The notes under the pieces are model-generated. The model was not told the origin of the DNA, made no database searches, and saw only the letters and a program-made list of their open reading frames with translations. A program made the translations under genes and the position numbers. From Butyrivibrio sp. MC2013 (lineage in GTDB: Bacteria; Bacillota; Clostridia; Lachnospirales; Lachnospiraceae), in NCBI RefSeq assembly GCF_000424585.1, contig NZ_AUKE01000004.1, forward strand, positions 1 to 64,000: a stretch of 64,000 nt of DNA, read 5' to 3'. Every line of letters begins with the position of its first letter. Within the stretch, counting starts at the first letter, position 1. This document shows, one piece after another, positions 7,776 through 60,749 of this stretch.

Positions 7776-7885
7776 AAAGCCGTCACATGCACCGTCTACC
7801 GCTGCTTGCTTTGTCTTTTCAAGGTCACCTCCGCTGGTAACAAAGGTGATACCTGCATTAACTGCAGCTCCCGATACCGCACCTG
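7291..7885 (-). repeat. 595-bp direct repeat shared with the RHS gene (9476-10070)
   Basis: The two blocks align base for base at a constant offset of 2185 with few substitutions, and homology ends abruptly on both sides. The right limit is at the point where the orphan tip diverges from the RHS coding sequence. Recombination between the copies would remove the GIY-YIG tip and Imm26 gene and place the AHH tip on the RHS protein. Confidence 0.88.
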
Positions 7886-7915
7886 TGACCGTACACGCTA
7901 CACAGTATTAGATTA

Positions 7916-9046: not shown

Positions 9047-9061
9047 TTACACTCCACAAAA

Positions 9062-9105
9062 TGTAGGTGTTTCTATACAAATGAAACATGTATATAACAC
9101 CTACA
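9062..9105 (-). terminator. Hairpin between the RHS toxin gene and its immunity gene
   Basis: Arms TGTAGGTGTT and AACACCTACA are perfect and can be extended inward by ATATACA with TGTATAG. On the minus strand the stem is followed by only four T, so it could be a leaky terminator or an RNA stability element that sets the ratio of toxin to immunity transcript. Confidence 0.5.
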
Positions 9106-9129
9106 ATCAATGAAAATAAAGTAGTATTT

Positions 9130-45825: not shown

Positions 45826-47142
45826 TCAGAAATCCTCTTCGCACTTTATTTTGTCTTCAACACTGATATCCTTGCCCATTTGAACCTCAATAGCTACTAT
45901 CTTGGTATCAGCTATAAGTGTATGGCGCTGGCCCTTTTTCATCTCTATCACATCTCCTGGCCCCACAGGGGTCTTGACACCGTCCACCACTGCAGTACCC
46001 TTGCCGGATACTATTGTCCATACTTCATCCCTGTGCTCATGGGCATGATAGTTCATCCTGTGTCCGGGGCGAAGTGTCACCTTGATGGTCAGGCTGGTAT
46101 CCTCTACATCCACAGCCTTAAAGGATCCCCAGGATTTCTCAGAGAACATGATCTGCTGATTGATACTGTCCACTATAGGCTTGATATAGGATGACTGCTC
46201 CTTGTCAGAAACAAGGACACCTTCAGGAGATGCAGCCACAACCATATCCTTAAGGCCCATGCATACCACAGGTACATCCATCTCATTGATCACATGGACA
46301 TTGGAGCATTTATCATTGAGGACCACCTTGCCGATAGAGGAATCCTCCATAGCCTCGGTCAGTGTATTCCAGGTACCCAGATCCTTCCAGACACCGGAGA
46401 ATCTCACCACTCTGATATCAGACTCCTTCTCTACAACAGCATAATCAAAGCTGATCTTTTCCAGAGATTTATACTTATTGTATAGCTCCTTGTAATCTGT
46501 AAAGTCTATAAGCTCATGTGCCCTGCCCAGTATATAGGACAGCCTGCAGGCAAAGACGCCTCCATTCCAAAGCGCACCTTTCTGAATATATCCCTTGGCA
46601 GTCTCAGCATCAGGCTTTTCCTTGAAAGTAGATACCCTGCTGATCTTATCCTTGGACTCAGGGATGATATAGCCGTATTTCTCACTGGGATAAGTGGGCT
46701 CTATTCCCATCAGGGTAAGTCCTCCCTCTCTCTCCTCAGCAATACCAAACATCTCATTTAATACTCTGAAGTAGTCATCATCCACGTAAGGATCCACAGG
46801 GCAAATGACTACGCCTTCATCCTCTCCCACCTGCTGTACATCCTTAAGATATGCTGCAGCAAGGGCGATAGCGGGAAAAGTGTCCCTCCTGGCAGGTTCT
46901 ACAGATATACCTACCCTCTCGCCTATCTGGTTGTGGATGGCAGATACCTGGCTCTTGGATGTAGCCACAGTTATGGCTGCATCGGGATCTATAGCCAGGA
47001 TCCGGTTATACATGCGCTGGACCATAGATTCATAGGAGCCGTCATCTTTCTTGAATATCTTGATGAACTGCTTGGAGCGCACATCATTACTCAGGGGCCA
47101 GAGTCTTTTACCTGAACCTCCTGATAGTAAAATTATGTTCAT
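45826..47142 (-). CDS. manC: Mannose-1-phosphate guanylyltransferase, with C-terminal isomerase-type cupin
   Basis: The 438-residue protein begins NIILLSGGSGKRLWPLSND, the pyrophosphorylase loop of the ManC/AlgA family. Typical later blocks are FKEKPDAETAKGYIQKGALW and GVWKDLGTWNTLTEAM. The last 110 residues form a cupin like the phosphomannose isomerase part (KSWGSFKAVDVEDTSLTIKV, GHRMNYHAHEHRDEVWTIV). It makes GDP-mannose for surface polysaccharide or glycoproteins. It lies downstream of the UDP-sugar dehydrogenase gene on the same strand, separated by truncated repeat copy D. Confidence 0.88.
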   Translation of the reverse strand: MNIILLSGGSGKRLWPLSNDVRSKQFIKIFKKDDGSYESMVQRMYNRILAIDPDAAITVATSKSQVSAIHNQIGERVGISVEPARRDTFPAIALAAAYLKDVQQVGEDEGVVICPVDPYVDDDYFRVLNEMFGIAEEREGGLTLMGIEPTYPSEKYGYIIPESKDKISRVSTFKEKPDAETAKGYIQKGALWNGGVFACRLSYILGRAHELIDFTDYKELYNKYKSLEKISFDYAVVEKESDIRVVRFSGVWKDLGTWNTLTEAMEDSSIGKVVLNDKCSNVHVINEMDVPVVCMGLKDMVVAASPEGVLVSDKEQSSYIKPIVDSINQQIMFSEKSWGSFKAVDVEDTSLTIKVTLRPGHRMNYHAHEHRDEVWTIVSGKGTAVVDGVKTPVGPGDVIEMKKGQRHTLIADTKIVAIEVQMGKDISVEDKIKCEEDF

Positions 47143-47156
47143 GAACAGAACCTTTC

Positions 47157-47199
47157 GTTAAACTCGCAAACGCTTCGCTTTTTGCTCGTTATAAAATCA
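47157..47199 (+). repeat. Structured dispersed repeat, copy D (left end only)
   Basis: The 43 bases match the left end of copies A and C up to TTATAAAATCA, then break off. It lies between manC and ugd. The last three bases supply the TGA stop codon of the ugd gene on the other strand. Confidence 0.78.
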
Positions 47200-48453
47200 G
47201 TTATCGTGGAAGAGATCCTTGGTATATACCTTATCCTTCCATGCATCCAGATCCTCTGAGTATCTGTTAGCAATGATAACATCAGCTTTTTCAGCAAAAT
47301 CCTTCAGATCATTAACTACAGTGCTGCCAAAGAATGTGGAGCCATCTGTAAGAGTGGGTTCATATACAATACAGGATACGCCCTTAGCCTTTACCCTCTT
47401 CATGATGCCCTGGATAGAGGACTGGCGGAAGTTATCGGAATTGGCCTTCATGGTAAGGCGGTATACACCGATGGTAACGCTCTTCTCGTGGTCAGGCTCA
47501 TAGCCTGTCTCGTCAGAATAGGTATAGTAGCCTGCTTTCTTCAGCACCTGATCAGCAATGAAATCTTTTCTGGTACGGTTGGACTCTACAATAGCCTCAA
47601 TAAGATTCTCGGGCACATCCTGATAATTGGCCAGGAGCTGCTTGGTATCCTTGGGCAGGCAGTATCCGCCATAGCCAAAGGAAGGATTATTATAGAATCT
47701 GCCAATTCTGGGATCCAGACATACACCCTTGATGATATCCTGGGTATTCAGTCCCTTCATCTCAGCATAGGTATCCAGCTCGTTGAAATATGATACTCTG
47801 AGAGCAAGGTAGGTATTGGCAAAAAGCTTAACAGCCTCAGCTTCTGTAAAGCCCATGAACAATACGTCTATATCTTCCTTTTCAGCACCCTCCTTAAGAA
47901 GCTCTGCAAATGTATGAGCTGCTGCTGTGAGCTTATCATCCTCAGGATCAGTGCTGACAATGATACGGCTGGGATAGAGATTGTCATAGAGTGCCTTGGA
48001 CTCTCTCAGAAACTCAGGGCTAAAGATCAGATTACGTACATTCTTGGCTTCTCTGATATGTCCAGTATATCCTACAGGGATAGTAGACTTGATGACCATA
48101 ACTGCTTCGGGATTGACCATGCTTACCAGATCGATAACAGCTTCAACTGCTGATGTGTCAAAGAAGTTCTTGGCAGCATCATAATTAGTGGGAGTTGCGA
48201 TAATGACAATATCAGCCTCTTTATATGCAGCCTCCCCGTCTGTAGTTGCAGTGAGCCTAAGCTCTTTTTCTTTAAAAAACTTCTCAATATACTCATCCTG
48301 GATAGGGGAGATCCTGTTATTGATCTTCTCTACCTTCTCAGGGATAATATCCACCGCTGTAACATCGTGATTTTGGGATAACAGAGTTGCCAGGGATAAT
48401 CCCACATATCCCGTACCCGCAACAGCTATTTTCAGATCCTTAAACTCTCTCAT
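47197..48453 (-). CDS. ugd: UDP-glucose/nucleotide-sugar dehydrogenase
   Basis: A 418-residue protein with the Rossmann opening [20 protein letters not shown], and the dehydrogenase blocks [54 protein letters not shown]. The catalytic Cys lies in [19 protein letters not shown] near 260. It oxidises UDP-glucose (or a related UDP-sugar) to the uronic acid with two NAD. It overlaps the VanZ gene by 4 bases and precedes manC, a pairing expected for exopolysaccharide precursor supply. Its final codon is provided by a repeat copy, so the extreme C-terminus may be recently changed. Confidence 0.92.
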
Positions 48454-48959
48454 TCCTCAACACTCCTCCTAAGAAATATTATTGAACAAAGCTTATATAT
48501 ACCTTTTATGATAAGTGCAATAATAAGCACAATGGTGATAGAAACAAAATACCCCATAGCATCTCTTATGATATCAGCAAAATCAAATTCTCTCCCGGGC
48601 ACAAAGCGCTTATGGAGCTGATCCAAAAAAGAGATGTAGAAACATATAAGAACAGCCAGATAGGACCTGAGAAAGATCCTGACTTTTTTGCCCGGCGCAG
48701 TGAGCACCAAAGTCTCTACGATGACGCCAAAGGCAAAACCCTGATATACATGTATGAGCTTTCTGGGATTATTGAGCTTGAGCATCACCCAGTATTGATT
48801 CTCATGCCAGGGAAAAAACTCTGAAAAAGCTCTCGCACCGGCGTTACTAAGCCACAATGTCTGCTCCCTGGTCTGCCTGGTCAGATAAATGATGATCAAT
48901 ATCCCAAGAAAGAGCAAAAATATTGAAAAATAAAAAATAAACTTTCTTAACTTACGCAA
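48450..48959 (-). CDS. VanZ-like membrane protein
   Basis: The start is probably the TTG at 48959, which has GGAG seven bases before it, giving [20 protein letters not shown]; the ATG at 48986 lies within the kinase gene without a ribosome site. It has four membrane helices and the VanZ-type order: [57 protein letters not shown], and [20 protein letters not shown], the last being the RxFDxxDxxxNxxG-like signature. Function of the family is not settled beyond a link with glycopeptide tolerance. It overlaps ugd by 4 bases. Confidence 0.8.
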
Positions 48960-48961
48960 TT

Positions 48962-49846
48962 CTACTTCTCCATAGCAGGAAGGCATACATAAAAGCTGCT
49001 ACCTTCTCCAACCTTGCTTTCACACCATATAGTTCCGTTATGCATGGAGACTATTTCTCTGGCAATGGCAAGACCAAGACCGCTCCCTTTAGTGCCTGTA
49101 GGAGTCCTGGCATCAGAGACCATATAGGTTCTCTCAAATATGTCCTCCAAGGCGCCTTCCGGTATACCTATGCCGCTGTCAGTCACAGCAAAAATCACAG
49201 CATTCTTGCCTATTATACCATCATTAAAGCCATAGGTACACGATTTATTATCGGCAGCGCCAAGGAGCGAGAGCCTGATCATGGCATCATCTTCGGAATA
49301 TTTACCGGCATTTGTAAATAGATTGTCCAGAACTCTGGTCATAAGTCCGGGATCGATATTCACATATGCAGCGTAGCCCTCATCTATATCCAGCTCCAAC
49401 TTTTTATGAGCATACTTGGAATCGGATTCAATGCTGTAATAATACTCCTCAAGAAACTGGTCAATTGGCACCTTCTGAAGTTTTGGCTCATATCGTCCAT
49501 TTTCAAGGCCGGCCAGATAATAGAGATTATCCACAAGAGATTCCATAGCCAGGGTCCTGGAATCCATAATATGGAGCAGACGCTCCATTTCTTCCCACAA
49601 GCCATACTGTTCCGAACCAGATGAAGCTTTACCCTTAGCTATTCCACGCTTCATAAACTCACTCTCCATCAGCTCCACACAGCTCCTGATAGCTGTAAGG
49701 GGAGCCCTGAGGTCATGAGATATGTTCTCTATCATCATGGTCCTGTGACTTTCTTCTTCCACCAGCTTCTTATTAGCTTCTATAAGTCTGGCAGAAAGTT
49801 CTTCTATAGTACTCTTACTAACATCAGGACTTGTAAACTTCTTCAT
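48962..49846 (-). CDS. Soluble sensor histidine kinase
   Basis: The 294-residue protein has no membrane helix and no recognisable sensor domain. It starts with a short coiled stretch (STIEELSARLIEANKKLVEE), then the phosphoacceptor region IENISHDLRAPLTAIRSCVE with His44. The ATPase has N box RVLDNLFTNAGKYSED, G1 VTDSGIGIPEGALEDIF and G2 TGTKGSGLGLAIAREI. It would read an intracellular or partner-delivered signal. The nearest response regulator, an OmpR type, is 4.8 kb upstream in the RiPP region. It is the first gene of a kinase, VanZ, ugd, manC set. Confidence 0.9.
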   Translation of the reverse strand: MKKFTSPDVSKSTIEELSARLIEANKKLVEEESHRTMMIENISHDLRAPLTAIRSCVELMESEFMKRGIAKGKASSGSEQYGLWEEMERLLHIMDSRTLAMESLVDNLYYLAGLENGRYEPKLQKVPIDQFLEEYYYSIESDSKYAHKKLELDIDEGYAAYVNIDPGLMTRVLDNLFTNAGKYSEDDAMIRLSLLGAADNKSCTYGFNDGIIGKNAVIFAVTDSGIGIPEGALEDIFERTYMVSDARTPTGTKGSGLGLAIAREIVSMHNGTIWCESKVGEGSSFYVCLPAMEK

Positions 49847-50082: not shown

Positions 50083-50241
50083 ATGAAGAAATGGGAAACA
50101 CCTGAAGTACAGTTCTGCACAATTGAGAGCACAAGCTGCCATAGAGAGCGTCCTGTAGAGGATCAGCCTGTAGAAGTAGAGCCTATCATCCCTGCATGCA
50201 ATCCCACAGATTATGCATCAGGAATCGGTGCAGAAGTTTAA
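50083..50241 (+). CDS. RiPP precursor peptide 2, lasso-like leader
   Basis: Fifty-two residues from the ATG at 50083, chosen because GAGGAGG stands eight bases before it. The first 18 residues (MKKWETPEVQFCTIESTS) resemble the leader of the peptide at 58630: both have MKxWxTPEV then IExTxCH. By analogy with lasso leaders, Trp4, Pro7 and Val9 fit the YxxPxL-type recognition site for PqqD and Thr17 the conserved -2 Thr. The putative core then starts with Cys, has Glu and Asp at positions 8 and 9, and runs 34 residues to the stop. A promoter-like TTCACT, 16-base spacer, TATAAT lies upstream. It is 7 kb from the processing genes. Confidence 0.68.
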   Translation: MKKWETPEVQFCTIESTSCHRERPVEDQPVEVEPIIPACNPTDYASGIGAEV

Positions 50242-50263
50242 TCTTCTGAAGTAAGGTTGACTT

Positions 50264-50302
50264 AAGCCGTGAAAACAAATTCGTTTTCACGGCTTATTTT
50301 TT
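50264..50302 (+). terminator. Terminator of precursor peptide 2
   Basis: AAGCCGTGAAAAC and GTTTTCACGGCTT form a 13-base stem with a six-base loop, followed by a run of T. Confidence 0.88.
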
Positions 50303-50469: not shown

Positions 50470-53400
50470 TTATTTAGTTTTCTTCCTGATGAGAAGAAAA
50501 GCTATTCCTAACGCAGCAATAACTATTACCGTAAGGCTTGCCAGCAGGCTGAAATTATCACCTGTATTCCTGCCTCTTACTCCAAGAACCTCTCCGTCTT
50601 CTGCACTTCTGAATATTCCAAGAACTGCAGGTCCATCAGTGGCACCAAGAACTGTGATGCCGGGCCTCTCTGAAGGGATAGTCGGAGGTGTTACAGGCGG
50701 ATCAACAGGAGGATTGACAGGGGGATTTACAGGCACTGTCTTCTTCACCCAGATAGCATAGAGATCATTCTCTGTCAGATTATCCAGGAGGATATCACCC
50801 TTATATGCTATACCTGATCTGTCGGGCTTTGTATTCCACTCTACAAATGTATATCCGGGATACTTGAAGCCAAGCTTACCTACTGTGCTAATGGTAACTG
50901 TCTTATTATTGGCCAGGTCAACCGTATGAGTCTTACCGCTGCCATTATTTGCATGATAGGTCAGAGATGTGGGAAGGCCAGCATCTGCATACATAGCATA
51001 GAGCCTGATATTGCTTCCGTCATTGTAATTCTCTTTTACAAATTCAACCTTATCATTTGCAAAGTAACTCTTGCCGCTTCCATCAGCAGCTGTATTCCAT
51101 CCTGTGAAGCCGACTTTGCCTGCAGGAGGAGTGAGCACGCTTCCATCCTTTACATCTGCAGCGGAACCTTCAGCATAAAGAACAGTATCCGATACGTTAC
51201 CCATACCACCATTGGGATCATAGATCACCATATGGTTCTCTTTATTGATGTAATAAGGGAAAAGCTCCTTATCCTCATAAAGCCTGGTATTAAAGTTATA
51301 GATGATATAGTTACCGTCTGCATCCTTCTCGGTCCAGCCCACAAAGCTGTATCCTGAAGGAATAGTTATAGCTTCCTGTGCAGATTCTTCTAATGCTGAG
51401 AAACTCTTTTCACCGTTATTTACCGAAGGAAGCCTTCCGCTTTCAAATGCTTCACCATAAGGTACATCATAGCTGTAATAATCAGAGTCATCTTCCATAG
51501 CTACATGAGCTATCAGCTTACATTGTTTCAGACCTTCCCACTTTGCAAATGCCAGAACATTATTGGCAGGCATATTATAATCAAAGTCAAAGGGCACTTT
51601 ACAAGTCTTGTCCTTATACCATCCTGTGAATTCATAGTGAACAGGTACCTCAGCAGGATGGGATACTTCAAAGTCATATGCATCAGCTGCTTTAAGAGCA
51701 CTCAGGATATTATCCTCATACTTTACAGGTACTACCAGCTCCTCGCCATTGTAATTGTAGTATACAAAGTCGTAAGAGAGTCTCTTATAACGAACTGCAA
51801 GGACCTGACCTGTCTTGCCATGATTAAGTCTGGTATTTGCTGTAGCAGATTTCCAATCAGCATTTTCAAACTTATCATCAAAGCCATTCTTATCTATGAA
51901 TGCATAATCATATAGAGCAAATCCAGTAAACTTATCAGTGAGATCAAAAGTATTCTTTTTACCAATGTTGAAGGTCTGGAATACATCCCAGTCTCCATCA
52001 AGGTTCTCTGTGTAGAATCTAACTTCGCACTCAGCAGCTCTCTGATTCCAATATACAGGAAGCAGCTGCTGACCATCTCCCTTACTGTATTCCTGATCCA
52101 ATATGAAATCATCGAAAAGGAATGCATCCAGATAATTCAGAATCCTACCAACTTTATAACTATTAGGCTTCGCTTCTGTAAAAGTACAGAACTGGAATGC
52201 TGTGGATCCCGGCCAGTTATAGCCATACTTAGAGAGCTTTTGTCCATAGAGACCAGTGAAATAGCCGTTCTCACCTATTGTGTAATAATCTTTATATACA
52301 TACTTAGTATCTGTACCATAGTCTACATATTTGAATGCTACCGTCATGTAATCTCTGTCGTAGCATACATTTATAACAGATGTTCCGTCTGCCTTAGCAG
52401 TGGTATCACTTGCCATATCACCCTGGATACCCACATGTCCAAAATGGAAGCCGTGATAATCCAACTCTTTGTCAGCTTCTTCAATACTGATCTCAGAACC
52501 GGTAAGCGCATACCTTGTAACAGACTCCTTGTAATCATAAGTCCTGTCAGTCTCTTCCAGATCCTTATCATCATCTATATTCTGCTGCCAATATACAACT
52601 GTATACTTCACCAGAACCGGCTTCCACTTAGCATATACAGTGGTATCAGCTGTCAGTGCCTTGCCAAACTCAAAGGCAGCTCCGCCTTCAGTAACAGTCC
52701 ACTCTACAAACTCATAGCCCTGGCGAACAGGAGTTTTTCCGGGCTTAACTGTCACATCTCCAACAGCTACAAACATAGGCTCTGTATAGCTGCCCTCTTC
52801 TCCGGCATCAAAATACAGATAATGTCCCATACCTACATTAGGATAAAGTCTGATATCTCTATCAGCAATAGTTACTTCATTTACCTTCTTGGTAAGATCT
52901 GTATCAAGGCACCAGCCTACCAGGCCCTCAACAGAGCTCATGATCACGTTCACATCTGACGTACTGATCACATCACCCTTCTTACCTTCTTTGGTAACAA
53001 GTACTCTGTTGTACTCGCCGTTATCATCTGCTCTGTCCATGAAGAACACATAATGAACTTCTGCATATACGGCATATACATTTACTGTGCCTCCTGCTGT
53101 TACTCCTGTGATCTGCTGATCAAAGGTAAAGCTCTCAGTTGCAGTATCAGCCTTTGCAGTTCCGGCCCATCCAAGGAACTTGTATCCTTCAATCTCATCT
53201 ACTACTGGCTCATATAGCATTTCAAGAGTAGTTCCTGCTCCCTCACCTTCTACAGGAGCTTTCAGTGTCTGTGAAGACAGAAGCTTACTGCCTTCTGCGT
53301 TATAGAAATTGTATGTAAGAAGATAGTACTCATTGCCCTCCTCATCAGTCACGATATCGGGAGCGGCAATAACATATATGGAGAAGTCTGTGGCATTATT

Positions 53401-54381
53401 TACTTCAATATATCCGTCATTGGATGACTCTGCAAGCTTGGTAGCCTCAGAATTCTCATCCTTCATGTGATATATTTCCAGGCTGTCACCTGAAAGATCA
53501 ACATTGGAGAACTCCACGCTGATGGGAAGTCTGGGCTGAAGATCCTCAGTGATATCATTTACATAGAAGCTGATATCAAAAGCAAGGATATCAGACTGCG
53601 CTACTTCTGTTCCTGTCATAGCATCGTTGACATTGTCTACAACGCAGGCTGCGCTTACAGGATTGATCACCACCTTGACTCCTGCAGGAAAAGCGCCCTG
53701 GGGTGCCTTGATGGAGATACCAGTGCTGCCCACAGTCTGAGTGCCAAAATCCACAGCAGGGAAAGAAGCTGTATCTGCAGCCATAGGAGCAAAATTTGCA
53801 GTAAATACAATATTATCGCTAACATTTGCATAATCTGCAGGATTCAGATAAGGCTCAGTGGAAACACACTCTTCATTAACCGTCCAGTTGCTAAAGCTGT
53901 ATCCCTCGCCTGCAACAGCAGTGCTTCCCTGATATGAAGCATTGCTACTATCTGTACATTCACTTGTAAGAGATACGCTTCCGCCCTCTCCTGCCAGATA
54001 TGTAACAGTGATCAGATTGCTGACGCTATCATCTGCGGTCTCTGTAGCAGCTTCTCCGGAAGGCTCACCTGCAAGGACTTCTACTGCTTCATCTGCAGCT
54101 ATAGAAGAATCTCCGACAGTATCCTCATAAGCTATGTTCTCAGTCATCAACTCTGCCTGGGCCTCTGCTGAAACTTCTGATTCAGCTTCGCTTTCAGTAG
54201 CAGGATCTACTGCTGCTTCAAGCTCCTGATCTATTGTCTGAACCTCATCTGACGCCTGTGCATAATCGGCAAGATCGCTGATCTCATCAGCCGTAGCCAC
54301 AAGAAAACTATGGCTGAATGTGGCAAATGCAATAAGCACTGCCATGCACGCAGCAAGGAATCCCCAGATTCTTTTTTTCAT
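50470..54381 (-). CDS. Cell-wall-anchored InlB/Listeria-Bacteroides repeat adhesin
   Basis: A 1303-residue protein with a signal peptide (residues 1-32, MKKRIWGFLAACMAVLIAFA), an Ala/Glu-rich stretch, then many InlB B-type repeats. They are recognised by GYEFVEWTVTEGG, YAKWKPV, FTGWYKDKTCKVPFDFDYNM and GFTGWNTAADGSGKSYF. A Pro-rich stalk (NPPVNPPVDPPVTPP) precedes VLGVRGRNTGDN, a hydrophobic helix and a basic RKKTK tail. This tail is laid out like a sortase signal, with RNTGD in place of LPxTG. It would be covalently or membrane anchored at the surface and bind host or plant polymers. It is transcribed alone and separates the RiPP genes from the kinase. Confidence 0.82.
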   Translation of the reverse strand: MKKRIWGFLAACMAVLIAFATFSHSFLVATADEISDLADYAQASDEVQTIDQELEAAVDPATESEAESEVSAEAQAELMTENIAYEDTVGDSSIAADEAVEVLAGEPSGEAATETADDSVSNLITVTYLAGEGGSVSLTSECTDSSNASYQGSTAVAGEGYSFSNWTVNEECVSTEPYLNPADYANVSDNIVFTANFAPMAADTASFPAVDFGTQTVGSTGISIKAPQGAFPAGVKVVINPVSAACVVDNVNDAMTGTEVAQSDILAFDISFYVNDITEDLQPRLPISVEFSNVDLSGDSLEIYHMKDENSEATKLAESSNDGYIEVNNATDFSIYVIAAPDIVTDEEGNEYYLLTYNFYNAEGSKLLSSQTLKAPVEGEGAGTTLEMLYEPVVDEIEGYKFLGWAGTAKADTATESFTFDQQITGVTAGGTVNVYAVYAEVHYVFFMDRADDNGEYNRVLVTKEGKKGDVISTSDVNVIMSSVEGLVGWCLDTDLTKKVNEVTIADRDIRLYPNVGMGHYLYFDAGEEGSYTEPMFVAVGDVTVKPGKTPVRQGYEFVEWTVTEGGAAFEFGKALTADTTVYAKWKPVLVKYTVVYWQQNIDDDKDLEETDRTYDYKESVTRYALTGSEISIEEADKELDYHGFHFGHVGIQGDMASDTTAKADGTSVINVCYDRDYMTVAFKYVDYGTDTKYVYKDYYTIGENGYFTGLYGQKLSKYGYNWPGSTAFQFCTFTEAKPNSYKVGRILNYLDAFLFDDFILDQEYSKGDGQQLLPVYWNQRAAECEVRFYTENLDGDWDVFQTFNIGKKNTFDLTDKFTGFALYDYAFIDKNGFDDKFENADWKSATANTRLNHGKTGQVLAVRYKRLSYDFVYYNYNGEELVVPVKYEDNILSALKAADAYDFEVSHPAEVPVHYEFTGWYKDKTCKVPFDFDYNMPANNVLAFAKWEGLKQCKLIAHVAMEDDSDYYSYDVPYGEAFESGRLPSVNNGEKSFSALEESAQEAITIPSGYSFVGWTEKDADGNYIIYNFNTRLYEDKELFPYYINKENHMVIYDPNGGMGNVSDTVLYAEGSAADVKDGSVLTPPAGKVGFTGWNTAADGSGKSYFANDKVEFVKENYNDGSNIRLYAMYADAGLPTSLTYHANNGSGKTHTVDLANNKTVTISTVGKLGFKYPGYTFVEWNTKPDRSGIAYKGDILLDNLTENDLYAIWVKKTVPVNPPVNPPVDPPVTPPTIPSERPGITVLGATDGPAVLGIFRSAEDGEVLGVRGRNTGDNFSLLASLTVIVIAALGIAFLLIRKKTK

Positions 54382-54663: not shown

Positions 54664-55356
54664 TCACCTGCTAACAAATCTATAGCCGTATCCCCATACA
54701 GTCTCAATAAGATTGTCCATCCCGGTATATTCCGTAAGCTTCTTCCTAAGGCGGGATACATTAACAGTGACAGACCTGCGATCAGCTTCACTATAGCTCC
54801 CCCAGATACTAATACCGATATCCTCAAAGGTCACTTCGCGGCCGGCATTATCAACCAGATATCTCAGCACCTCATACTCCTTACCGGAGAGAGGTATCTC
54901 CTCTCCAAAAGCTGTAACTGTATGAGTCACTGTCTGGATGGTAAGGGGCGATATCTCAATAGTATTGGACTCATGTCTGACCTGGCCTGCCACAGCACGG
55001 TTACGCCTGATGTTGGCTACTATCCTCATATATACTTCCCTGATATTATAGGGTTTTTCTATATAATCATCACAGCCTGCCATAAAGCCCTCTTCCTTGG
55101 CCTCTTCAGAAACTTTGCCTGACAGGAAGAGTATGGGAGCATTGGTAAAGCCCCTAAGATCCCTGCAAAGCTCGTATCCATCCATCCCCGGCATCATAAC
55201 ATCCAGCAGGATACAATCCGGATTAAAATTACGAGCAGTCCTGCTTGCAGTAAGGGGGTCGCTGCAGATCATAACCGAGCAGTCATTATTCTCAAAGAAC
55301 TTCTTGTTGATGCTCAGGACTTCTTTATCGTCATCCACCATAAGTATTTTGTACAT
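54664..55356 (-). CDS. OmpR-family response regulator of the RiPP operon
   Basis: The start at 55356 (MYKILMVDDDKEVLS) has GAGG six bases before it. The receiver domain shows acidic Asp8-10, phosphoacceptor Asp52 in DCILLDVMMPGMDGYE and Lys in ILFLSGKVSEEA. A winged-helix DNA-binding domain follows (SGKEYEVLRYLVDNAGREVT, VSRLRKKLTEYTGMD, VWGYGYRFVSR). It lies 17 bases after the B2 protease gene and should be co-transcribed with it. It may be partnered with the soluble kinase at 48962-49846, since no other kinase is in the window. Confidence 0.92.
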   Translation of the reverse strand: MYKILMVDDDKEVLSINKKFFENNDCSVMICSDPLTASRTARNFNPDCILLDVMMPGMDGYELCRDLRGFTNAPILFLSGKVSEEAKEEGFMAGCDDYIEKPYNIREVYMRIVANIRRNRAVAGQVRHESNTIEISPLTIQTVTHTVTAFGEEIPLSGKEYEVLRYLVDNAGREVTFEDIGISIWGSYSEADRRSVTVNVSRLRKKLTEYTGMDNLIETVWGYGYRFVSR

Positions 55357-55373
55357 ATGCAGCCTCACACGTA

Positions 55374-55823
55374 TCAAGCTATCCTGGATCTGAACCTGTC
55401 AACAATGGCATAGCCTTCGCCATTGCCTCCTGTCACATATACTTTGCCGCATCTAACCCATGCATGGGCCACCATTTTACCATGTTCATCAAGCTTACAG
55501 CCCAGATACATGGTGGATTCCACGCCTTTTTCTGCAAGGAGCCTCTGTGCAGTAAGCGCCCTGACAAGACACTTACTCTCCCACCTGGTACGGTTACATA
55601 CATGCTCAACAACGAGAGCCACATTTCTGCACAGACGATAAGCTGATATATCAGCATCTTCAGGAGATTCCTCTCCTTCGATGCCCCATTCCTTATATAT
55701 CTTCTTTGGATCTATAAATAATATCTTGAACCTGAACTCAGCAGAATACAAAAATGCCTTGATAGACATCCTTCTGTGTCTGTTAAAACGAAGAAAACGT
55801 ATACCTCTTCCTATAACACTCAT
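55374..55823 (-). CDS. Lasso-peptide-type B2 protease (transglutaminase-like)
   Basis: The 149-residue protein has the B2/Transglut_core3 pattern. A basic N-terminus and helices lead to TRWESKCLVRALTAQRLLAE with catalytic Cys85, and KMVAHAWVRCGKVYV with His120. The acidic third residue is not obvious, since TGG follows where Asn or Asp is common. In lasso systems B2 removes the leader after PqqD (B1) presents it. It sits between the nucleotidyltransferase and regulator genes, divergent from pqqD. No other protease for the peptides is encoded nearby. Confidence 0.82.
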   Translation of the reverse strand: MSVIGRGIRFLRFNRHRRMSIKAFLYSAEFRFKILFIDPKKIYKEWGIEGEESPEDADISAYRLCRNVALVVEHVCNRTRWESKCLVRALTAQRLLAEKGVESTMYLGCKLDEHGKMVAHAWVRCGKVYVTGGNGEGYAIVDRFRSRIA

Positions 55824-55923
55824 TAAATAACTCCAAACGAATAATAGATCACCCTAAAACCAAAATATATACAAATGCCATCTTACCCACAGGCAGCATT
55901 TGTAATACAAATCCTCGACTCCA

Positions 55924-57090
55924 TCACTGGCTGTTAAAATCCAGCTTTAATTTCTTATATATGGAGATCATGTCAGTAGCGCGGCTCTCACTGCTTTCCA
56001 CCAGCTTCTTTCTCCTGTCCATCTTACTCTTATCTGACACACCTGTGATACCCCTGTGTATCCAAGTGGCAGGCAGAAGAAAGGGAGCCTTCTCCAGTAC
56101 AGGATAATGCTCTTTCATACGATCGATCGAAGGGAAATAATACCTCAGCACAGCATCCTTACCAGATGCTCCGCCCTTGTCCTTGGCCAGCTGGCCCCAG
56201 ACACCGTTCTCACCCTTGCCGTAAATGCCGCAATCAAGCATATAAGCAAAGAGATCATTGTAAAACTTATTGCTCTTTCTCTTATCAAGCCAGATATAAG
56301 CCAGATTCTTCATGTGCTCTTCGAAATCTACAAGGCCGCACCTTGAAAGCTCTGCCTTAAGGATTTCCTGATTCATGACAGCGCCATATTTATTCCAATA
56401 TACATAAATGTCCAGGAGGTTCCTGACACCGCACCCCTGCTCATAGAAGTGCTTGGCCATATGGGAGATCATGTATACATAAAAGTCTTCATTGGTAAAC
56501 TCATAGGTATACTCTGCTCCCTCTTTCTTTACAGATCTAAAATTATCCTTGAAATAGAGGTACTGCCCCTTATCCACATGCTTGTCATAGAGGGACCAGT
56601 GCATCTCTACCATCAGGAAAGGCTTCTTATGAAAAATAATATGATGGGATATAGCCTTATCCATCTCATAGCCCAGAGCCTTCACAACCTCTGTACTATG
56701 ATCCATGGTCTCATCATAAACCATGAAGTCTATATCGCTCATCTCTCTCATCTCAGGTCTGGGATAGATCTGCTTCAGCACAGTACCCTTCAGCACCTGA
56801 TTACGTACTCCGTTTGCTTCAAGAGCTTCTTCCAGCTCTCTGGCTGCAGTAACCTGAGCCAGTGTCTTTAATGTACTCCTGACCAGCACAGGTCTTATAT
56901 GCTCTTTAACCTCTTCCGGAATATCCGTCTGTATAACACCGGACAAGACCATGTAGAGAATCTGACCTCTTCCTGCAACATCAAATAATTCGTCAAAGCT
57001 GATCCCTTCAGGAATAGCAGGAATATCGGTCTTGTCGAACTCTGCCTTAATAAGATCGGCAAGATAGTCCATCATCAGTAAATAGTTCAT
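55924..57090 (-). CDS. Nucleotidyltransferase-family protein of the RiPP locus
   Basis: A 388-residue soluble protein of the NTP_transf_5 type. VLKGTVLKQIYPRPEMREMS is followed by DIDFMVYDETMDHST, giving the DxD metal site of the nucleotidyltransferase fold near residue 122. The C-terminal half is helical and basic, with HYPVLEKAPFLLPATWIHRG. Such genes occur in Firmicute lasso clusters (paeninodin type), where a kinase and a nucleotidyltransferase decorate the peptide. The ribosome site is weak (GGGGATGATATTAAC). It heads the minus-strand operon with the B2 and regulator genes. Confidence 0.8.
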   Translation of the reverse strand: MNYLLMMDYLADLIKAEFDKTDIPAIPEGISFDELFDVAGRGQILYMVLSGVIQTDIPEEVKEHIRPVLVRSTLKTLAQVTAARELEEALEANGVRNQVLKGTVLKQIYPRPEMREMSDIDFMVYDETMDHSTEVVKALGYEMDKAISHHIIFHKKPFLMVEMHWSLYDKHVDKGQYLYFKDNFRSVKKEGAEYTYEFTNEDFYVYMISHMAKHFYEQGCGVRNLLDIYVYWNKYGAVMNQEILKAELSRCGLVDFEEHMKNLAYIWLDKRKSNKFYNDLFAYMLDCGIYGKGENGVWGQLAKDKGGASGKDAVLRYYFPSIDRMKEHYPVLEKAPFLLPATWIHRGITGVSDKSKMDRRKKLVESSESRATDMISIYKKLKLDFNSQ

Positions 57091-57166
57091 GTTAATATCA
57101 TCCCCGTCGTATTTCTTTCATATAGTTAAATATTTAACCAAACCCATATTATAAATTCTAACATAC

Positions 57167-57234
57167 TTGAAATAATTCTTAAATCATTTTATTATAAGCA
57201 TGCACATTAATTTTCAAGAATATATCTGTGCATG
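57167..57234 (+). promoter_or_regulatory. Promoter and leader inverted repeat of the pqqD operon
   Basis: -35 TTGAAA (57167-57172), 17-base spacer and -10 TATTAT (57190-57195). CATGCACA (57199-57206) and TGTGCATG (57227-57234) form an 8-base inverted repeat around the expected transcript start and just before the ribosome site, well placed for a regulator. Confidence 0.65.
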
Positions 57235-57251
57235 ATTACGGAGGATTTTTT

Positions 57252-57518
57252 ATGGACATGTCATCAAGCATCAAGCTAAAGCCCGGCATCAATGTGACTG
57301 ACCTCTCAGGGGAAAAGGTGATGATCGACTTTGAGACCGGCAAGTATTATATGATCAAGGGTGTCGGCAACGATATCTGGGATAGGATCCAGACAGAGAC
57401 TACAGTTTCCGACCTTGTTGCTTCTCTGCTTGCAGAATACGAAGTGAGTGAGGAAGAATGCAAGACATCTGTCATCGCATTTCTAGAAAAGCTTGAAGAG
57501 CTTAATTTCCTGGCTTGA
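57252..57518 (+). CDS. PqqD-family peptide-recognition protein (B1-like)
   Basis: The start at 57252 follows GGAGG by seven bases (MDMSSSIKLKPGINVTD). The 88 residues show the RRE fold of PqqD. VMIDFETGKYYMIKGVGNDI is the strand pair and helix pattern (xxLxxxxGxxYxLNxxGxxIW) and a helical C-terminus follows (VSDLVASLLAEYEVSEEECK). It binds leader peptides and delivers them to modifying enzymes, here probably the B2 protease and kinase. It is the first gene of the plus-strand operon. Confidence 0.9.
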   Translation: MDMSSSIKLKPGINVTDLSGEKVMIDFETGKYYMIKGVGNDIWDRIQTETTVSDLVASLLAEYEVSEEECKTSVIAFLEKLEELNFLA

Positions 57519-57625
57519 TACAAAGATCACCGGGCCGTTTCCTTTTGGGATACGGTCTTTTTCTTTTTGAGCAACAAGACTCCAATTGATAAAAGTTATC
57601 ATACATAGTGAAAGGAAATAATATT

Positions 57626-58504
57626 ATGTATCATTATCAAATGTATGGTCTGACTATCTCATCTGATATCGATATCCCTTATCTGATAGAGGGAGCTTCC
57701 AATGACGCAGATGTGATCATAAGAAGAGGCGATATTCCGGATTTCCTGCGCGGGGCCGACTCTGCCCCATATTACTCTGTGGCCAAGGACGAAGCCTGGT
57801 TTCACAATAGTACAGGCTTCTTCTACATGAGAGAAGGCAAATACATTAACTATCTGGAGAGAGAAAACTCATCCACACATTACGATATCAGAGCCTTCCT
57901 CACAGGCTATGCGATCAGCATCATCCTCATGCAGAGGGGCTATCTGGCTATCCACTGCAGCGCAGTATACGGCCTCGAAGGAGCCGTGATCATATCAGGC
58001 GGATCAGGAGCAGGCAAATCCACTCTCACTTCCCGTTTCCTGGAAAGAGGCTATAAGCTCATGGCAGACGATATTGCTGCGGTTCGCTTTGAAAATGGCG
58101 GCGCTTATCTTTATCCGGCCTTCCCTTATCAGAAGCTCTGCAGAAATGTGCTGGATGACAGCGACAGGGATATGGAAGACCTCATATATATAGATGAAGA
58201 GAAGGACAAATACCTGGTACCCGCAGAGCATTTCCACAATGAGCGCGCCAAGGTAAGCCGCATGCTGGTGATCAGCAAAAAGGACATTGAAGAGCTGAAT
58301 ATATATGAGCTCTCCGGCATGGATAAATTAACCGGTTTACAGAATAACATGTTCCTCCATGAGCTCACAGGCCCCTGGCAGTCTTCTCCTGAATTTCTCA
58401 CCAGCTGCCTTGTATGCGCAGGGGCTTTTCCCATTACCCGCATCGAAAGGCCAAAGGGCAAGGACACTCTAAGCGAGATTGAAAGCCACGTTATCCCAAA
58501 ATAA
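57626..58504 (+). CDS. HPr-kinase-like RiPP kinase
   Basis: The start at 57626 (MYHYQMYGLTISSDIDIPYL) has AAAGGA nine bases upstream. The 292-residue protein has an N-terminal all-beta region, then an HprK-like kinase core. AIHCSAVYGLEGAVIISGGS leads into Walker A GGSGAGKST at about 125-132, and LMADDIAAV at 146-153 is the Asp-rich catalytic loop. YPAFPYQKLCRNVL matches the family pattern. Homologues in paeninodin-type clusters phosphorylate the C-terminal Ser of the precursor. Neither precursor here ends in Ser, so the acceptor is unclear. Confidence 0.82.
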   Translation: MYHYQMYGLTISSDIDIPYLIEGASNDADVIIRRGDIPDFLRGADSAPYYSVAKDEAWFHNSTGFFYMREGKYINYLERENSSTHYDIRAFLTGYAISIILMQRGYLAIHCSAVYGLEGAVIISGGSGAGKSTLTSRFLERGYKLMADDIAAVRFENGGAYLYPAFPYQKLCRNVLDDSDRDMEDLIYIDEEKDKYLVPAEHFHNERAKVSRMLVISKKDIEELNIYELSGMDKLTGLQNNMFLHELTGPWQSSPEFLTSCLVCAGAFPITRIERPKGKDTLSEIESHVIPK

Positions 58505-58559
58505 AAGGGCTTTAAGGACACTGAATATAAATACAATTACAACAATTCTGTTGCAATTG

Positions 58560-58589
58560 TTTACATAATATCCTTCCAAGTGATATTGT
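58560..58589 (+). promoter_or_regulatory. Promoter of precursor peptide 1
   Basis: -35 TTTACA (58560-58565), 18-base spacer and -10 TATTGT (58584-58589). The ribosome site GGGAGG follows at about 58615. The precursor can thus be made separately from, and in excess of, the enzymes. Confidence 0.58.
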
Positions 58590-58629
58590 ATCAATGGTGC
58601 ATATATCATTTTAAGGGAGGATATACAAA

Positions 58630-58815
58630 ATGAAGATTTGGAACACACCTGAAGTAGAAACACTTAAGATCGAGAACACAGCATGTCACGATGAGACACC
58701 TGTTTGTGAGCAGGCCAGCGGCGCTGTAGAGTGCGAGCCCACTCCTTGCCAGCCTGTAACTCCTGTTTGTGGTCCTCAGAGACCTCATAGACCTGGCAGA
58801 TGGGGCAGACACTAA
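58630..58815 (+). CDS. RiPP precursor peptide 1, Cys-rich with lasso-like leader
   Basis: The 61-residue peptide follows GGGAGG. Leader residues 1-18 (MKIWNTPEVETLKIENTA) match the peptide at 50083, including Trp4, TPEV and Thr17. The putative core begins CHDETPVCEQASG and has Glu at position 9, which would allow a nine-membered macrolactam with the Cys1 amine. The remaining core is rich in Cys-Pro pairs (five Cys, counting Cys1, in positions 1-29) and ends in a basic Arg/Pro/His tail (RPHRPGRWGRH). At 43 residues it is much longer than common lasso cores. It lies between the kinase and exporter genes. A disulfide-rich bacteriocin without macrolactam is an alternative. Confidence 0.75.
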   Translation: MKIWNTPEVETLKIENTACHDETPVCEQASGAVECEPTPCQPVTPVCGPQRPHRPGRWGRH

Positions 58816-58850
58816 TTAGTCGGTGATCATTTAGGGTTTTTACTAAAAAA

Positions 58851-58880
58851 GGCCGATGCCGTTTGGCATCGGCCTCTTTT
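58851..58880 (+). terminator. Terminator after precursor peptide 1
   Basis: GGCCGATGCC and GGCATCGGCC form a perfect 10-base stem with loop GTTT, followed by TCTTTT. A second hairpin (GAAACACGCA/TGCGTGTTTC, 58926-58951) comes before the exporter gene. Confidence 0.92.
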
Positions 58881-59018
58881 AATGATAGAATGTTTAAATG
58901 ATATATGTTCTTAGATGATTCTTCAGAAACACGCATTTTACTGCGTGTTTCGTGAGAACATGAATCATACAGTATATATAAGCTTCAAAATACTTAATAT
59001 CAAAGGGGTTAGTAAGGT

Positions 59019-60749
59019 ATGAAGAGTGACAGGGAGAAACTAAAAGAGTTCCTGAACAATAAAGAAAACAACAAGAAATATGTATCGTGGCTCATACATT
59101 ATTCCAAGCCATATATTCCCAGAATAGTTCTGCTGATGCTCATCAGCATGGCCGGAACCTTCTTTTCCATAGAGCTGGCTGTCATATCCAAAAAAATACT
59201 GGATAACGCTGCTAAAGGAGGGGCCATATTCAGCGTAATAGGCCTATATATCCTGGTACTGGCTGCATCTCAGATACTGACTATTGTATCAAGGCTGGTA
59301 TCAACCATGCTCAACGAGCGCTTCTCATTTGGTATCAGGAAGCAGGTCTACGACAAGATCCTCAATTCCGTATGGAAGGATGTGAGTAAGTATCACACTG
59401 GTGACCTGATGACCAGGATGACCAGTGATGCCGGATACATAGCAGACGGTATCGTCAATGTCATCCCTCAGATCATGGTGCTCTTATTTGAGCTGGTAGC
59501 AGTCTTTATCACTCTCTTTATGTATTCTAAATTCCTGGCTATATTTGCCCTGGCCATGGCACCCTTTGCAGCACTTGTTGCACTGGTCCTTGGCAGGAAG
59601 CTCAAGCCTCTTCAGGTCAAGGTCCAGGAATCCGAGACCAATTACAGATCCTTTATACAGGAATCACTCTCCCATCTTCTGGTTGTAAAGGCGTTTGATA
59701 ATGAGACATTCTTTTCAAAGAAGCTGGTCCAGCTCAGAGAAGAAAGATTCCACTGGGTATGGAAGAGAACCCTCCTGAGCACAGGCACATCAGCTGCCAT
59801 GTCAGTACTCTTCGAGCTGGGTTATGTCATCGCCTTCTCCTACGGAGTACTCCAGATAGCTTCCGGCGAGATCACCTTTGGTACTCTGACAGTATTCCTG
59901 CAGCTGGTCAACCGTGTATCTGCGCCTGTTCTTGAGATAGCCAGCAAGCTCCCTTCCATCGTATCTATCATAGCCAGCGCAGGCCGTGTTATGGAGATCC
60001 AGAATATGACTCCTGACGAGAGACTGGGCATAAAGGAAGTACCTGCTGTCAACGTAGGTGTCAAGGTGTCAGATGTATCCTTTGGTTACTCCAATGATAC
60101 AGTACTAAACGGCATCTCCTTTAATCTGAATCCCGGAGATTTCGTAGCACTGGTAGGCGAATCAGGAATCGGTAAGACCACACTTATCAACCTTTTAAAC
60201 GCCTTCTTCCTCCCCGGAAGCGGCTCCATTGAATACTATGATTCCAAGGGCAATGTGATCCCTCTCAATGCTGATGTACGTAAGTTTATCTCCTACGTTC
60301 CTCAGGGCAACTCACTCTTCTCCGGTACCATCAGATCCAATATCCTCCATGGTAAACCGGATGCCACAGAGGAAGAGATTGCAGAAGCTGTTAGATTATC
60401 GTCTGTTGGAATGTTTATAGATGACCTGAAGGACGGCCTGGATACCAAGCTTGGTGAAAAAGGCACAGGTATCTCCGAAGGTCAGGCTCAGCGTGTAGCC
60501 ATTGCCAGAGCCCTGATCAGAAAGTCTCCCTTCCTGATCCTGGATGAAGCAACCAGCGCTCTGGATGAAAAGACAGAGCTTGCTGTACTGGGCGGCCTCT
60601 CACAGCTTAATCCCCGCCCCACATGCCTCATGATCACTCACAGAAGGAGCGTTCTCAAATACTGCAACAGAGAGCTCAGGATCGTGGACGGTGTGCTCAC
60701 AGAGATTGATATGGATAACGATCCTCTTCAGAGGGATGTGTTTATCTGA
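59019..60749 (+). CDS. ABC exporter (TMD-NBD fusion) for the RiPP
   Basis: A 576-residue half-transporter. Six membrane helices lie between about 25 and 320 (IPRIVLLMLISMAGTFFSIE for the first). The ATPase follows with Walker A VGESGIGKTTLINLL, signature GISEGQAQRVAIARAL, Walker B FLILDEATSALDE and switch MITHRRSVL. It lacks an N-terminal C39 peptidase domain, so leaders must be removed by another enzyme, in line with the B2 gene. It should export the mature peptide as a homodimer and may also confer immunity. It is the last gene of the plus-strand RiPP operon. Confidence 0.9.
   Translation: MKSDREKLKEFLNNKENNKKYVSWLIHYSKPYIPRIVLLMLISMAGTFFSIELAVISKKILDNAAKGGAIFSVIGLYILVLAASQILTIVSRLVSTMLNERFSFGIRKQVYDKILNSVWKDVSKYHTGDLMTRMTSDAGYIADGIVNVIPQIMVLLFELVAVFITLFMYSKFLAIFALAMAPFAALVALVLGRKLKPLQVKVQESETNYRSFIQESLSHLLVVKAFDNETFFSKKLVQLREERFHWVWKRTLLSTGTSAAMSVLFELGYVIAFSYGVLQIASGEITFGTLTVFLQLVNRVSAPVLEIASKLPSIVSIIASAGRVMEIQNMTPDERLGIKEVPAVNVGVKVSDVSFGYSNDTVLNGISFNLNPGDFVALVGESGIGKTTLINLLNAFFLPGSGSIEYYDSKGNVIPLNADVRKFISYVPQGNSLFSGTIRSNILHGKPDATEEEIAEAVRLSSVGMFIDDLKDGLDTKLGEKGTGISEGQAQRVAIARALIRKSPFLILDEATSALDEKTELAVLGGLSQLNPRPTCLMITHRRSVLKYCNRELRIVDGVLTEIDMDNDPLQRDVFI

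Follow-up and report, generated by a model that had tools for sequence, protein, structure and literature searches.

The 64,000-nucleotide stretch of Butyrivibrio sp. MC2013 DNA analyzed here (the window) probably carries the central part, or hub, of a lasso-peptide system dispersed over the genome; the hub's recognition protein (B1), leader protease (B2) and exporter would act in trans on remote cassettes. Gene content, copy numbers, a shared leader motif and a split arrangement recurring in relatives are the observations behind this reading. The features of the hub, with positions in the window, are as follows.

48962..49846, minus strand: histidine kinase (HisKA + HATPase_c, Pfam), probable partner of the response regulator
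50083..50241, plus strand: second precursor (MKKWETPEVQFCTIESTSCHRERPVEDQP...), a stand-alone gene with a ribosome-binding site and a leader common to the other three precursors
50263..50296, plus strand: terminator-like hairpin 3' of the second precursor (14-pair stem, then a T run)
54664..55356, minus strand: OmpR-type response regulator (Pfam Response_reg + Trans_reg_C; start set by eye from the translation)
55374..55823, minus strand: B2 leader protease (NF033537, 77.5 bits, cut-off 33)
55924..57090, minus strand: NTP_transf_5 nucleotidyltransferase (Pfam, 164 bits, cut-off 31)
57252..57518, plus strand: B1, a PqqD-type RRE (NF033536, 82 bits, cut-off 80, scored on the frame from 57228; start then moved to the ATG behind GGAGG)
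57626..58504, plus strand: HprK-like kinase (start moved to ATG), with a Walker A motif and homologues that adjoin lasso cyclases; Hpr_kinase_C 26.2 bits, below the curated cut-off of 33.3
58630..58815, plus strand: first precursor (MKIWNTPEVETLKIENTACHDETPVCEQ...), Cys/Pro-rich, with a clear ribosome-binding site
58850..58875, plus strand: terminator-like hairpin 3' of the first precursor
59019..60749, plus strand: MsbA-like ABC exporter (Pfam ABC_membrane + ABC_tran)

The B1, B2, kinase, nucleotidyltransferase, exporter, regulator and Cys-rich precursor named in a preliminary description of this DNA all lie where they had been placed, and most are now identified by profile. The same description took both flanks to be unrelated, which holds only in part, since the second precursor and the likely partner histidine kinase belong to the system; in relatives, 30 hub loci were listed, and 18 of them have a histidine kinase homologue as the direct neighbour of the response regulator homologue. 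Sugar-nucleotide genes also occur near the hub.

In the genome, which is 99.83% complete, B1 and B2 each gave a single match over the cut-off, both located in the hub. Cys85 and His120 of B2 are invariant in all 12 aligned sequences. Two further candidates were judged by eye and rejected: for B1, a 116-aa frame adjoining a polymerase-like gene (C2:35675; PqqD 22.6 bits, below the cut-off of 23.4), and for B2, a sub-cut-off match inside a 461-aa frame adjoining a secretion-like gene (C15:45241).

The lasso-type cyclases of the genome are found in two satellite cassettes, each composed of a precursor, a kinase and a cyclase with open frames. One cassette lies 33 kb off on the same contig and holds the cyclase nearest to the hub B2; the other is on another contig.

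C3:88559-90361: satellite cyclase, Cys2 absent, SGG[LI]DS present
C8:141487-143400: satellite cyclase, Cys2 absent, SGG[LI]DS present

No B1, B2 or exporter was recognised in the 20-kb stretches around these two satellites. Cyclases were told apart from AsnB by Cys2, by their neighbours and by a profile (A1). The satellite cyclases lack the Cys2 of AsnB (N-termini MSAIWG and MSGIFG) and align with those cyclases of relatives that adjoin B2. Their match to A1 follows by construction, because both belong to the 15 cyclases, picked by their neighbours, from which A1 was built. The family NF033535 was set aside as a discriminator of lasso cyclases: both satellites score 158 bits, under its cut-off of 525, and an AsnB-type protein of the genome with an MCGI N-terminus scores 181. 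The suggestion that the cyclase is encoded elsewhere, one of two alternatives in the preliminary description, is well supported, with two lasso-type cyclases in the same genome and split arrangements recurring in relatives.

The absence of a cyclase from the window, also pointed out earlier, was confirmed by tblastn with both lasso-type cyclases of the genome as queries (best E 0.053), and no remnant was detected by the same search. A hub without an adjacent cyclase might be regarded as a decaying lasso cluster that has lost its cyclase and whose own precursors yield nothing, and a relative, Butyrivibrio VCD2006 (L194/L271), does carry a truncated B2 adjoining a truncated cyclase. Decay is nevertheless unlikely here. 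Every hub frame is open from end to end, both precursors retain a ribosome-binding site and a terminator-like hairpin, the window search turned up no trace of a former cyclase, and both satellites are open with no other B1 or B2 over the cut-off in the genome.

Comparison with relatives shows how often cyclase and B2 are found apart. Among 397 genomes of the family, B2 was found in 12, a lasso-type cyclase in 13 (14 less G370, whose protein is AsnB-type with the N-terminus MCGICG) and both in 11 (Fisher p 1.1e-18). Named B2 loci, 79 in number and the best of 322 matching stretches, were also used; 50 were searched for cyclases, 11 belonged to genomes already in the set, and 18 were left out. 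A cyclase lies within 10 kb of B2 in 39 of the 57 examined genomes with both, and in the other 18 there is none within that distance. At least two cyclases occur in 30 of 55 single-B2 genomes. In B2-bearing genomes, 58 of 105 cyclases are separated from B2 by more than 10 kb or sit on a different contig, a count inflated by draft contigs, and one that, like the other distance counts, retains an artefact, the mirrored cassette of G403 (57 of 104 without it). A lasso-type cyclase without detected B2 was seen in two genomes (G285 and G358), and B2 without a cyclase at the thresholds used in five (G346, G405, G423, G433 and G437). The same-genus genome G207 was searched for B2, lasso-type cyclase and precursor, and none was found.

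The other alternative in the preliminary description was a different class of peptide formed without a macrolactam, and a cyclase adjacent in relatives was listed there as a refuting finding. Because a cyclase does lie within 10 kb of B2 in those 39 genomes, a cyclase-independent class is disfavoured for the locus as a whole; for the window's own pair of Cys-rich precursors it is rather doubtful.

Four precursors were found in the genome, two of them in the window. All four have a WxxP leader (W-NTPEV, W-ETPEV, W-NTPVV and W-ESPEI), the W having been part of the pattern in one precursor search. They agree with the leader pattern [Y/W]xxPx[L/V/I] of Bacillota lasso systems, in which paeninodins have W. 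As they share WxxPx[V/I], one B1 could bind all of them. Moreover, each of the four has a Thr followed by an acid at +10, which is Glu in the first precursor of the window; the cores being acid-rich, an acid in this register could be chance. In a set of 134 candidate precursors, drawn almost wholly from relatives and with some evident false frames kept in the count, an acid at Thr+10 or +11 is seen in 104, compared to 14-55 at ten control offset pairs. Glu at Thr+10 is present in 18 of 27 c8-linked candidates versus 2 of 64 c3-linked ones. Ser is among the last three residues in 81 of the 134; neither window precursor has a terminal Ser. Additionally, four precursors remote from any machinery have an acid at position 8/9, two with at least 6 kb seen on each side and two near a contig end.

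Conservation of the precursor frames, on which the preliminary description had laid weight, differs between the two. The first precursor has no profile match, and a protein database search gave one other homologue, 89% identical, in which a one-residue insertion moves the acid by one. For the second precursor, as for that of the relative L168, the search returned only the sequence itself.

On the preferred reading of a shared hub, the window would supply a single RRE (B1), leader protease and exporter together with a two-component regulator; the ring-closing cyclases would come from the satellite cassettes, where each is accompanied by a precursor and a kinase of its own. The leader would be cut by B2 near the conserved Thr, after which a satellite cyclase would close the ring between the freed N-terminus and the acidic residue 8 or 9 of the core; phosphate would be added by the kinases, and the product would leave through the exporter. 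The C8 cyclase may also serve the window precursors. The window kinase is 49% identical to the C8 satellite kinase, and the two are sisters in the tree (support 0.995).

It is conceivable, and rather doubtful, that the two window precursors are not cyclised at all, and that they belong to a side branch of peptides, modified by the kinase, held by disulfide bonds or left linear, which only borrows B1, B2 and the exporter of the hub. The hub would then serve the remote lasso cassettes and also mature its own Cys/Pro-rich precursors without a cyclase, as a B1/B2-dependent peptide type that would recur beside unpaired kinases in the relatives L168 and L198. No cyclase adjoins the window precursors, and the first of them has five Cys. 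In L168 and L198, under a pairing rule of the nearest kinase within 2.5 kb of a cyclase, an unpaired kinase from the same broader clade adjoins the exporter, and the neighbouring Cys/Pro-rich precursor on the opposite strand lacks an acid at 8/9; the shifted acid in the 89% homologue points the same way. Set against this are the acid at Thr+10 in both window precursors and the sister relation of the window kinase to a cyclase-cassette kinase. The arrangement was seen in just two relatives, each with a cyclase for another precursor a few kb away; where other kinases are unpaired, the precursor carries an acceptor or no precursor was identified.

Mining for lasso peptides commonly relies on the co-occurrence of B2 and a cyclase, and one such rule, quoted in PMC13289728, pairs PF13471 with Asn_synthase. 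If a hub serves both remote cassettes and lone precursors, neighbourhood-based mining underestimates how many lasso peptides Lachnospiraceae encode. Several lassos per cell could then arise from one recognition protein, and some "incomplete" clusters of rumen genomes would be simply explained. The system would also offer a natural test of how tightly B1, B2 and cyclase need to be matched.

Among known systems, the linear polyphosphorylated peptide (LPP) clusters, in the portion of PMC13381572 consulted, share with the hub an RRE, an HprK-like kinase, an NTP transferase and an MsbA-like exporter with no cyclase in the cluster, and sugar-nucleotide genes lie near the hub as well. That the hub is itself such a cluster is highly improbable, and the idea was dropped because leader motif, RRE and peptidase all differ. 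As far as that source goes, LPP clusters use an archaeal-type signal peptidase (SpI) and a YxxP leader, whereas the hub has B2 and WxxP, with lasso-type cyclases elsewhere in the genome. For that peptidase, TIGR02228 has no match over its cut-off of 51.85 in the genome, the best being 24.6 bits on another contig. The LPP-specific RRE residues Asn33 and Asp70 are Lys and Ser in the hub B1, where the paeninodin Gly is absent too: Gly42 is replaced by Lys here and in 48 of the 58 B1s of the set, and is kept in 7. The closest solved chain to the hub B1 is PbaB1, a paeninodin RRE (9x90, E 1.6e-16), compared to E 0.28 for LppB.

In prochlorosin-type systems, one processing machine serves scattered precursor genes, which is a likeness to the hub; those systems use a lanthipeptide synthetase with scattered precursors, whereas the hub is a lasso system with scattered cyclase cassettes. 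A citrulassin study reportedly describes a distally encoded tailoring enzyme, a deiminase; in the hub system it is the core cyclase and the leader protease that are apart.

The closest likeness in parts is to the paeninodin-like clusters of Bacillota, including those of rumen Butyrivibrio (Sabino et al. 2020, PMC7533575), which are classed there as complete or incomplete, the sections consulted making no mention of remote cassettes. Going by those sections, the hub differs in having no adjacent cyclase, its cyclases being in distant cassettes, and in window precursors that are Cys/Pro-rich without a terminal Ser. It resembles them in B1, B2, HprK-like kinase, nucleotidyltransferase, exporter, two-component regulator and WxxP leader, and the precursors of the hub system, with Thr at -3 and a possible acceptor at 8/9, may follow those described there.

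All genes named for the lasso-like locus in the preliminary description were recovered in the window by translation and profile searches (regulator, B2, NTP_transf_5, PqqD/B1, kinase, precursor and exporter). The second precursor and a histidine kinase also belong to this hub, whose features are as follows.

48962-49846, histidine kinase, resembling the kinase directly beside the regulator in relatives
50083-50241, second precursor, with its own ribosome-binding site and a terminator-like hairpin
54664-55356, minus strand, response regulator (start moved by eye from the translation)
55374-55823, minus strand, B2
55924-57090, minus strand, NTP_transf_5 protein
57252-57518, plus strand, PqqD/B1 (start moved to an ATG behind a plausible ribosome-binding site)
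57626-58504, plus strand, HprK-like kinase (start moved likewise, to an ATG behind a plausible ribosome-binding site)
58630-58815, plus strand, first precursor
59019-60749, plus strand, ABC exporter

Among the 30 relatives' loci listed, 18 have a homologue of the histidine kinase directly adjoining the regulator, and 1 more has a single gene in between. In the window the two are kept apart by the second precursor and a surface protein (50470-54381, minus strand, 1303 aa) with Flg_new and InlB-B-type repeats. The HprK-like kinase scores under the curated cut-offs of its families, and its putative identity rests on a Walker A motif and on homologues beside lasso cyclases. Neither precursor matched any Pfam or NCBIfam family; their leader and core start are common to both (MKxWxTPEV...IExT[AS]CHxExPV). 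Elsewhere in the window, at 6978-17721 on the minus strand, lies an RHS-repeat protein of 2863 aa that has a pretoxin HINT domain close to the end; judged by eye, the HINT region recurs in a shorter frame with a different tail, giving a polymorphic-toxin-like array.

A cyclase encoded elsewhere had been proposed for this locus as one of two alternatives, and two lasso-type cyclases were indeed found outside the window, in small cassettes, when the genome (3.81 Mb, 48 contigs, 99.83% complete) was searched. Five Asn_synthase-family proteins were over the cut-off, one of them reported as two pieces. The two cassettes, or satellites, are:

Contig C3, 87404-90376, satellite A: precursor MKTWNTPVVEELGVQATAYSPLSGTREDG..., kinase, cyclase (about 600 aa, N-terminus MSAIWG)
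Contig C8, 141487-144702, satellite B: cyclase (637 aa, N-terminus MSGIFG), precursor MKKWESPEIATLEIAETAYGVIPALKEG..., kinase

The 20-kb stretches around them (L010, L011) showed no recognisable B1, B2 or exporter; the single B2 and single B1 over cut-off in the genome are both inside the window. Kinases of the window type number three, with two further weak matches. In NCBIfam, both satellite cyclases match the lasso cyclase model best (scores of 187 and 174 bits, cut-off 525), which is not decisive because that model also gives 181 bits to an MCGI-type protein from this genome. Their predicted identity as lasso cyclases is decided by their neighbours and by the missing Cys2 of asparagine synthetases; both satellite cyclases keep SGG[LI]DS. 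Cys2 is likewise absent from all 15 aligned cyclases, which had been picked by their neighbours. A DDE transposase (L011:14793-16265; nearest IS1634, under cut-off) starts 589 bases from the C8 satellite kinase, hinting that this cassette may be mobile. A few kb from the same satellite, a radical SAM/SPASM maturase-like protein (closest models TIGR04334 and TIGR04463, both below cut-off) and a peptidase-like frame (L011:16791-19610) possibly represent a second RiPP system.

Among 397 genomes of the family (probably Lachnospiraceae), B2 was over cut-off in 12. The cyclase profile, applied to the top three candidates of each genome, matched in 14 at E 1e-60, one of which was dropped as AsnB-type; both occurred together in 11 (Fisher p 1.1e-18). 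A scan of named genomes with the B2 alignment hit 322 stretches, the best of which make up 79 loci; the closest B2 among the loci listed was that of Butyrivibrio sp. AE3009 (65% identity). Cyclases were present in 46/50 of the scanned B2 genomes (E 1e-70). A B2 search of 65 genomes was positive in 62, with two copies in genomes G115 and G431 and one in the others. In this sample of relatives, chosen by B2 similarity, 57 of the 64 genomes having either gene have both; in 5 a B2 was detected and no cyclase, and in 2 a cyclase and no B2.

The arrangement without an adjacent cyclase recurs in some relatives: a cyclase lies within 10 kb of B2 in 39/57 genomes, and all those found lie farther away or on another contig in 18/57. 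Nine of these 57 have it on the B2 contig beyond 10 kb (this genome at 33 kb), and nine on other contigs only, a class inflated by contig breaks. The counts also include a few fragmentary entries (e.g. G415, G438) and one mirror-copy cassette of G403. On the complete Blautia parvula chromosome, the cyclase is 13 kb from B2, with a B1 beside the cyclase. By gene, 58/105 cyclases of B2-bearing genomes are more than 10 kb from B2 or on another contig, and at least two cyclases occur in 30 of the 55 single-B2 genomes that have any cyclase.

Several individual loci were also observed. At each end of one contig of genome G403 lies a copy of one cyclase cassette (L251, L252). The two copies are exact mirror images (14,994/14,994 bases), probably through an error of assembly; if genuine, they would form a long perfect inverted repeat. 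In genome G346, a 53-kb contig (L069, L116, L117) encodes B1 and B2 as a pair, together with an exporter, nucleotidyltransferases, a second PqqD and a VanZ-like frame; neither a kinase nor a convincing precursor was recognised on this contig, and no lasso-type cyclase was found in that genome at the threshold used for the family genomes. In Butyrivibrio VCD2006 (L271, L194), B2 and the cyclase next to it are both truncated, and the contig carries a full-length C8-type cyclase at a distance of 12 kb; this hub is apparently in decay.

Neither B1 nor B2 lies in the stretch in 33 of the 40 remote cyclase neighbourhoods retrieved, a count that takes in the G403 mirror copy and five stretches on the B2 contig that do not reach B2. 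A precursor lies within 2.5 kb of the cyclase in 29 of these 33, and a kinase in 23. Four lone precursors, all with an acid at core position 8 or 9, stand apart from recognised machinery. Those in Butyrivibrio VCB2006 (L321) and a Butyrivibrio MAG (L322) have at least 6 kb seen on each side; two more from VCB2006 (L320) are less than 1 kb from a contig end, with genes beyond possible. Taken together, these findings make action in trans the simplest account of the hub.

The leader DNA pattern had 15 matches in the genome, four of them convincing as precursor frames. A profile built with these four recovered them without adding another at E 0.5, and both pattern and profile would miss a precursor with a different leader. 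According to the accessible part of Sabino et al. (PMC7533575), rumen-bacterial lasso precursors carry a Thr at -3 and a Gly at +1, with an Asp at 8-9; this -3 differs from the penultimate leader position given as usual for Thr in the accessible text of PMC10368454. In the Sabino register, the four cores start with HDETPVCE (E8), HRERPVED (D8), SPLSGTRED (E8 or D9) and GVIPALKE (E8). An acid at Thr+10 or +11 occurs in 104 of 134 candidate precursors, which take in both satellite ones and some evident false frames, versus 14-55 at ten control offset pairs. Precursors adjoining C8-type cyclases have Glu at +10 in 18/27 and Asp there in 3 more; those adjoining C3-type cyclases have Asp at +11 in 41/64 and Glu at +10 in 2. 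Since Glu at +10 is typical of the former, the first window precursor fits the C8 type. The window kinase is the sister of the C8 cassette kinase (tree support 0.995), and the C8 cyclase thus appears the likelier partner of this precursor.

The window precursors are Cys- and Pro-rich without a terminal Ser, and they are acid-rich, so the in-register acid could be due to chance. For the first, one homologue was found (89%, on a 1-kb contig), in which an insertion shifts the acid from position 8 to 9. At two other loci (L168, L198), a wider-clade kinase adjoins an exporter with no paired cyclase, and the adjacent precursor, encoded on the opposite strand, carries Cys at the equivalent position (TAC) and lacks an acid at 8/9. 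Because of these precursors without an acid at 8/9 and the unusual window precursors, the hub might also serve a second type of product that is not a lasso, though this is rather unlikely; cyclization in trans would be the preferred reading.

Linear polyphosphorylated peptides (LPPs) are the published cyclase-less analogue, with an RRE, kinase, NTP transferase, exporter, SpI-type peptidase and YxxP leader in the accessible part of PMC13381572. The first four of these components, without a cyclase, are common to LPPs and the window. Membership was rejected: the leaders here are of the WxxP type, and the window B1 resembles PbaB1, a paeninodin RRE (9x90, E 1.6e-16), and scarcely LppB (9x8z, E 0.28). 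The two LPP-specific RRE positions are Lys and Ser in the window B1, with Asn in 2 and Asp in 2 of 58 B1s. The Gly named there for paeninodin RREs is Lys in the window B1, as in 48/58 (Gly in 7), and no SpI peptidase of the LPP-type family was over cut-off in the genome. Among the open-access PMC articles listed, no title or abstract start described a single B1/B2 hub with its lasso cyclases dispersed; the nearest, as far as the accessible text of each extends, are a lasso-peptide article that speaks of distal encoding (PMC12971885) and one on unclustered lanthipeptide proteases (PMC8960859). Adjoining the histidine kinase, at 45826-48986 on the minus strand, are a VanZ-like protein, a UDP-glucose/GDP-mannose dehydrogenase and a mannose-1-phosphate guanylyltransferase-like protein. 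Sugar-nucleotide genes thus stand beside this lasso hub, as they do for paeninodins and LPPs in the accessible portion of PMC13381572.
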